From the NCBI GenBank assembly GCA_017451025.1, contig JAFSSM010000033.1, positions 1-44,137 of the forward strand: a stretch of DNA of 44,137 nucleotides. The letters run 5' to 3'. Shown here in pieces: positions 32,479 to 33,773 of this stretch. The position numbers and the translations under genes are program-made. The stretch's first letter is position 1; every line of letters begins with the position of its first letter. Below the pieces are notes generated by a model. It saw only the letters and a list, made by a program, of their open reading frames with translations. It did not search any database and was not told the origin of the DNA. The stretch is from Synergistaceae bacterium (GTDB lineage Bacteria; Synergistota; Synergistia; Synergistales; Aminobacteriaceae).

Positions 32479-32925
32479 CTAAATCCTCCAGTCAATAAGG
32501 CTCTCCACCATGTCAAGGTCATACACCGGAATATTGTGTGCGTCCTTTATGCGTTTGCGTTCTGCGAATGAGTCATCAATGAAGATTGCCGGTTTATGCC
32601 TCAAAAAATCCGACTTGCGTTCCTCAGGAGAAATTGTGATTATTTCGTCGAAGATGTCCTCGCAAATTCTGTAATGCCGCAAATCCTCGTGAATATCGCC
32701 GTTATGTTTGGAGAGAAGGTAGATTTTCTTTCTGGTTGCTGCTGCCTGATAGAGGAAGGTTAGAAGCTGAAGGTTGACTTTCCCGTTTACGATTAGGGTA
32801 TCGTCATAATCGACGTAAACATGCTCATAATAGACGTTGGTCTTGTACGCGCTGTAGAATGCCCGGTCGAGCGTAATATCAGCTCCGTTGTCGATTAATG
32901 TAATCCCCCCCCCCCCCCTACACAA
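32479..32925 (-). CDS. HAD-like domain, probably the C-terminal half of a phase-variable fusion
   Basis: The open frame has no Met start: TTG 32925 lies before the G14 tract without a ribosome site. From the tract onward it encodes ITLIDNGADITLDRAF, then a HAD-type domain with YVDYDDTLIVNGK (motif I, Asp-x-Asp), YLLSKHNGD (motif II) and FIDDSF (motif IV). This could be a phosphatase or phosphotransferase domain. Its first 15 residues resemble the C-terminal edge of an ATP-grasp protein, so it most likely belongs to the preceding frame. When the tract is a multiple of three, both join into one protein of about 430 residues. Confidence 0.75.
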   Translation of the reverse strand: MCRGGGGITLIDNGADITLDRAFYSAYKTNVYYEHVYVDYDDTLIVNGKVNLQLLTFLYQAAATRKKIYLLSKHNGDIHEDLRHYRICEDIFDEIITISPEERKSDFLRHKPAIFIDDSFAERKRIKDAHNIPVYDLDMVESLIDWRI

Positions 32926-33773
32926 AATACGTAGAGAGTCAGCAGCGGGAAGTTAATACCCGCATTTCTCGATACGCCCATTGTGCCGGGGATTCTCGGC
33001 GAAATTTCCATGAGCATGTATTTTCCGTCAATATTGCGCCTGAGCTGGAAGAACCACGCTCCTTTGAAGTTAAGCCTGCTGTTTATTCGCGAGGCTATCT
33101 CCTGAACTTTCGGGTCATCGCCCAGACTCCGCGAACGCACACTGATTCCCGTCCTGATGCGTTCCCTGTCCCTGAGCTTGGCCGCACGCAAAACACCTTC
33201 AGCGTCGGTGAAACAGTCTACAGTGTACTCCATTCCAGGCAGATACTCGCAGATTATGCGTGAAGGGTCTTCATTGAGTGCATTCACCAGTTCTTCCTTG
33301 CTGGAAATTTTCTTTGCTCCCTGCGAACCCTGCCCTGTTTCGGGCTTAACGAACACAGGAAATGCCTCTACTTCATCCGCAGAAGAATACATGCGCGGGA
33401 TAAACTCCTCTCCTGCAAAATACTCGTAAGTTGCTTTCTTTGACCTGCAGGTCTTCGTGGTGAACTCATCAGTGATTATGCACATTGCAGAAATTTCGTC
33501 TGCGTGCTCGCTCAAGAAAACACTAACGCTGTCGTGAGCAGGATAAACGCAGTCAATTCTGTGCTCCGAGATTTTTTCGTTCAGGAAGCCCAGAAATCCC
33601 TCATCATTCACATAAGGGAAACCGTGTATCAGTTCCTTGAAGACGAACTCCGAGTGATCTTCTGCGCTTGTTCCTCCGACTAGTTCGACAAATTTGGAAT
33701 ACTTCAAGGCATTAACGATCTCAAAGGAGATTTCGCTTCCGGCAGGAAAAATCAGGACTCTTTTCTTGTTCAC
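32895..33773 (-). CDS. ATP-grasp protein, reading frame broken by G14 tract (currently OFF or truncated)
   Basis: 292 residues from GTG 33773, with an AAAGGAAG site. The N-terminal domain (RVLIFPAGSEISFEIVNALK) is Rossmann-like; the ATP-grasp core shows FPVFVKPETGQGSQGAKKIS, IICEYLPGMEYTVDCF and MLMEISPRIPGTMG, the last including the metal-binding acid. Just after LTLYVFCV the frame enters 14 G residues and stops 3 codons later. In the frame of the next ORF the sequence continues naturally. Hence the present length gives a truncated ATP-grasp protein, and 12 or 15 G would give an ATP-grasp/HAD fusion. It starts the second licD locus. Confidence 0.85.
   Translation of the reverse strand: MNKKRVLIFPAGSEISFEIVNALKYSKFVELVGGTSAEDHSEFVFKELIHGFPYVNDEGFLGFLNEKISEHRIDCVYPAHDSVSVFLSEHADEISAMCIITDEFTTKTCRSKKATYEYFAGEEFIPRMYSSADEVEAFPVFVKPETGQGSQGAKKISSKEELVNALNEDPSRIICEYLPGMEYTVDCFTDAEGVLRAAKLRDRERIRTGISVRSRSLGDDPKVQEIASRINSRLNFKGAWFFQLRRNIDGKYMLMEISPRIPGTMGVSRNAGINFPLLTLYVFCVGGGGGLH
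32905..32918. repeat. Homopolymeric C14/G14 tract splitting the ATP-grasp/HAD frame
   Basis: Fourteen uninterrupted C residues on the plus strand. For the ATP-grasp frame to pass into the HAD frame the number must be divisible by three; 14 is not. It is the third 14-base tract in the window. Confidence 0.95.

Follow-up and report, generated by a model that had tools for sequence, protein, structure and literature searches.

A candidate phase-variable ATP-grasp/HAD enzyme and a shared leader upstream of poly-G tracts in a Synergistota genus

Introduction

Phase variation of lic1/LicD in Haemophilus influenzae is driven by tetranucleotide repeats, and Campylobacter carries a mismatch-repair-deficient, hypermutable genome from which MutS1 and MutL are absent. 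The Campylobacter core phasomes consist of intragenic poly-G tracts of about 7–13 nt in surface and metabolic genes, and among the core genes of C. fetus are those for an ATP-grasp protein (G9–10), methyltransferases, a radical SAM enzyme and a short-chain dehydrogenase (PMC6321876). C-terminal phase variation has been described in Helicobacter canadensis, where length variation was shown in reads (PMC2823697). Our search of the literature for phase variation in Synergistota returned no earlier report.

Here we describe a locus from an uncultured member of this phylum, Synergistaceae bacterium (GCA_017451025.1), analyzed within a 44,137 nt stretch of contig JAFSSM010000033.1 (hereafter the window). 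The locus is very probably a phase-variable poly-G contingency gene, which encodes a two-domain ATP-grasp/HAD enzyme and shares an operon with a gene for a LicD-type transferase.

Results

Two frames separated by a G14 tract

The features of the window that concern us are the following.

33773–32895, minus strand: ATP-grasp frame, 292 aa, with a GTG start and an AAGGAAG ribosome site; its stop lies 3 codons past the tract
32933–32919, minus strand: leader TACGTATTTTGTGTA, whose core begins 15 nt 5' of the G14 tract
32918–32905, minus strand: G14 tract (reads C14 on the plus strand and G14 in the coding direction), within the linker joining the ATP-grasp half to the HAD half
32925–32479, minus strand: HAD frame, coding part 32904–32482, without a usable start
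32479–31721, minus strand: licD, directly 3' of the HAD frame and overlapping its stop, with its own GGAGG site
6909–6896, minus strand: second G14 tract, near the 5' end of a second licD (6081–6947), in frame and thus ON; leader TCAGTAAT at 14 nt
10511–10524, plus strand: third G14 tract, intergenic; leader TAAGTAAA at 15 nt

Apart from three runs of exactly 14, no G/C run of the window exceeds 7 nt. With 18 G9 matches observed against 0.12 expected from dinucleotide shuffles, the tract is not a product of chance. The preliminary description had the two frames split by the G14, with the ATP-grasp stop three codons further on, and the coordinates confirm it; directly past the tract the ATP-grasp frame ends in GGA-TTA-CAT-TAA. 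It had also held that the HAD frame has no usable start, which agrees with its having just two start-like codons, both TTG: one lies 5' of the tract, and the other is codon 82 and follows the catalytic DYDDT motif. The tract follows residue 285 of about 430, and the single protein of about 430 residues predicted for a tract of 12 or 15 would result from any multiple of three, which joins the frames. The sequenced state is OFF or truncated, as had been proposed: G14 is out of frame and the product stops at 292 aa.

Two further observations concern the surroundings. A divergent serpin (protease inhibitor) gene adjoins the locus (33928–35076; Pfam, 4.9e-105). Read on the minus strand, the intergenic G14 at 10511–10524 sits between TTGACA and TAAAAT, upstream of a gene for a metallo-beta-lactamase-fold protein, and is a possible promoter-spacer switch; locus L160 of a related genome, G058, resembles the same site with a run of 11.

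Fused and split orthologues

A database search for full-length ATP-grasp/HAD fusions, one of the checks suggested at the outset, found seven orthologues that are uninterrupted open reading frames of 427–465 aa (L032, L033, L035, L036, L069, L070 and L071) and that align right through the linker. The gene was found in 5 of 188 Synergistota genomes, fused in three and split in two, and the two split copies belong to the source genome and G058, which are of the same genus and form the closest pair among the five. The nearest orthologue, L031 of G058, is 77% identical; a G9 tract splits it too, within the corresponding linker and a few codons beyond the position of the G14. The gene is thus out of frame in both tract alleles known, G14 and G9, which counts against phase variation. 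L034 has a single-base frameshift in the linker without a long tract, L032 has a five-G run at this position, and the linker of our gene differs by about 8 nt from distant orthologues. Orthologues that consist of two separate genes, each with its own start, had been named as evidence that would contradict the idea, and none was found among the orthologues examined. The viral contigs searched yielded no relative. Fused orthologue L071 (G029) has no internal tract; a tract at 2424–2433 lies at the end of an acetyltransferase gene and precedes the start of the fused gene by about 70 nt.

Profile and structure comparisons place the 5' half in the ATP-grasp superfamily. It matches ATPgrasp_Ter (Pfam, 3.6e-20) and also the PRK12767 group, and a comparison of the structure model of L032, a fused orthologue, with 2pn1 gives Z 25.5. 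The 3' half gave no match in a Pfam search. Its motif I (DxDxT, here DYDDT; D32, D34, T36), K97 and D110 are invariant across orthologues, a model of this half alone is confident from about residue 22 onward, and HAD phosphatases are frequent among its best PDB fold matches, although with modest E-values; the motif, the conserved Lys and Asp and the modeled fold together support its assignment to the HAD superfamily. The enzyme probably acts in surface-glycan decoration.

Poly-G tracts across the genome

The source genome (2.35 Mb, 98% complete) harbors 59 poly-G tracts of 9–23 nt, the highest count among 83 family members. Among the clear intragenic tracts, with clear coding on both sides, G lies on the sense strand in 24 of 24 (P 1e-7), and 9 of these 24 are in frame, close to the chance expectation of one third, which fits random lengths. 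The genes concerned are for the most part glycan and surface genes; they largely encode glycosyltransferases, FkbM methyltransferases, ATP-grasp enzymes and LicD, and also acetyl- and acyltransferases, an epimerase, a radical SAM enzyme and beta-helix proteins. Taken together, some 60 poly-G runs probably act as random on/off switches of surface genes.

Four tract genes have a G058 orthologue that matches both sides of the tract. Comparing one genome per species, the frame state differs in three of the four, which are in frame in the source genome and out of frame in G058 and whose tract lengths differ between the two; the fourth is the present locus. Six tracts are found no further than 60 nt from a contig end, against 0.19 expected; such breaks are what mixed tract lengths would cause, and may also be technical. 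The absence of MutS1 and MutL that marks Campylobacter was not found here, since both genes are intact (open frames of 876 aa and 575 aa, respectively). Loss of mismatch repair was accordingly rejected as a cause, and there is no mutator background to explain high instability.

A leader upstream of long tracts

The flanks of the tracts are alike in unrelated genes. In the 40 nt 5' of source-genome tracts, TACGTAA occurs 9 times against 0.07 expected. We describe the leader by the core [TC][ACG][ACG]G[TC]A[AT][AT], in forms such as TACGTAAW or TCAGTAAT, at a narrow, genome-specific distance before the tract: about 14–17, 15–18, 18–19 and 19–22 nt in four species. The tracts considered were those of the window and loci L072–L127, L143–L230 and L249–L283. 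The core precedes 39%, 43%, 63% and 38% of the long tracts, against 0.9–2.4% of G runs of 3–6 nt in the same genomes (P 1e-27 to 1e-9). Since core and distances were picked after viewing the data, we turned to 35 held-out tracts, in which the core was present in 12/19 and 7/16 (P 5e-17 and 4e-8).

In 40 tracts from three genomes of two other genera the core occurred in 0/20 and 1/20, a contrast that base composition may partly explain, as these genomes look richer in G+C. So far, the leader appears confined to the source genus, and the idea that it is a trait of all G runs in the family was rejected on these counts. A protein-level feature is likewise disfavored, the core being present in all three codon phases and at intergenic tracts; in the window it stands 14–15 nt before all three tracts.

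The epimerase gene offers a view of sites with and without a tract. Relatives that have no tract also have no leader, and a tract-bearing copy gains only some 11–15 nt net over them. The epimerase of G022 (L233) has a G7 run without leader where G000 and G058 carry long tracts, and may be a tract being born or shrinking. Absent from the tract-less and G7 epimerases alike, and with so small a net gain, the leader accompanies long tracts and is no simple inserted block. These lengths, together with the roughly 8 nt of the ATP-grasp linker, give no support to the clean insertion of an entire mobile element of about 40 nt. Ribulose-phosphate epimerase was sought as a second unoccupied site, and no orthologues were found in the genus.

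Downstream flanks show regularities of their own. Many G058 tracts (L143–L170) have on their 3' side a partly inverted copy of the core, such as CAAAATTACTTAG, and TTACTTA occurs 7 times in G058 3' flanks against 0.05 expected. Longer similar flanks (TACGTAATTYSTGTAA, tract, TACACTATCATT) are common to L101 near 2073, L095 near 4001 and L096 near 2045, and are perhaps a repeated unit.

The leader hints at site-directed tract formation. It may guide the formation of tracts, stabilize them, or be selected for another reason. We put forward only tentatively, as a rather doubtful possibility, that the long tracts of this genus are placed or maintained by a site-directed process which recognizes the leader, acts at a species-specific distance and alters local coding, as opposed to being runs that slipped and grew at random. 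A search for literature on leader motifs of poly-G tracts, at title level, gave no relevant title.

Discussion

Selection and alternative explanations

Comparison of the split alleles of the source genome and G058 gave a pN/pS of 0.20 in the ATP-grasp half and of 0.16 in the HAD half; it is limited to these two out-of-frame alleles, and synonymous sites are near saturation. These values indicate that both halves are under strong purifying selection. As this holds between two OFF alleles, the gene does not appear to be decayed, and an untranslated HAD half would not be preserved to such a degree; a pseudogene is thus disfavored. That the locus comprises two genes or a decaying one, with the HAD half a relic or translated on its own, would accord with the out-of-frame state sequenced in both species of the genus with the split form, but this reading is scarcely credible in view of the low ratio in the HAD half, the existence of fused orthologues and the fact that the only start codon before the catalytic motif is the one upstream of the tract. 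We also regard it as very unlikely that the true tract length differs from the assembled one or that the G run reflects miscalled bases. Several platforms are prone to errors in poly-G and some contigs end in it, but the tracts recur in the same genes of separate species, are missing from other orthologues in the genus, share a DNA leader and, where clearly intragenic, are all G-sense, while the G9 of L031 is short enough for good reading and is still out of frame.

Transcriptional slippage or programmed frameshifting would yield a fixed proportion of full-length to truncated product from one DNA length, with no switching of DNA. Long homopolymers are slippery for RNA polymerase (PMC3711429), selection on the HAD half fits constant expression equally well, and both split alleles require a shift of the same sign, although such agreement has a 1 in 2 chance of arising. 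Against it, the frame state of three other orthologous tract genes differs between the two species, and the in-frame fractions look random, which a fixed recoding site would not give; we consider this explanation unlikely.

The poly-G contingency reading has in its favor a long intragenic tract beyond chance, whose length sets the full-length or the truncated frame and differs between related genomes, and an out-of-frame part kept by selection. The initial prediction of a phase-variable two-domain enzyme has gained support from the fused orthologues, the G9-split sister, the purifying selection seen in the HAD half and the collection of tracts across the genome; the switching itself we infer. 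Slipped-strand mispairing would alter the tract length, which would presumably vary within the population. Lengths at a multiple of three would give one protein of about 430 aa, and other lengths, as in the assembly, the 292-aa ATP-grasp half, in which most of the ATP-grasp domain would be kept and the HAD domain lost. Translation in the OFF state would stop some 420 nt short of licD, a gene with a ribosome site of its own, and slippage of RNA polymerase could leak some full-length protein. A surface phenotype would be expected to follow.

Comparison with known systems

We regard the locus as a well-supported candidate for a phase-variable two-domain enzyme, and the leader as the more surprising result. 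The findings would extend poly-G contingency loci to a Synergistota genus, in which switching would add or remove a whole catalytic domain. How contingency tracts originate is seldom asked, and the shared leader poses this question; if the site-directed reading were true, the leader would point to a dedicated generator of phase-variable genes.

The gene classes involved are much like those of the Campylobacter phasomes, whereas the source genome belongs to another phylum and has intact mutS and mutL, the tract of our locus lies at a domain junction and the tracts come with a genus-specific leader. As in H. canadensis, the tract is located far into the frame, such that a change in length would alter the C-terminus and not silence the gene; in contrast, a whole catalytic domain would be gained or lost here, and the lengths come from assemblies. 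Similarly to H. influenzae lic1, LicD-type transferases appear to be under repeat-driven switching, one licD having its own G14 and another following the switched gene, with poly-G here in place of the tetranucleotide repeats there.
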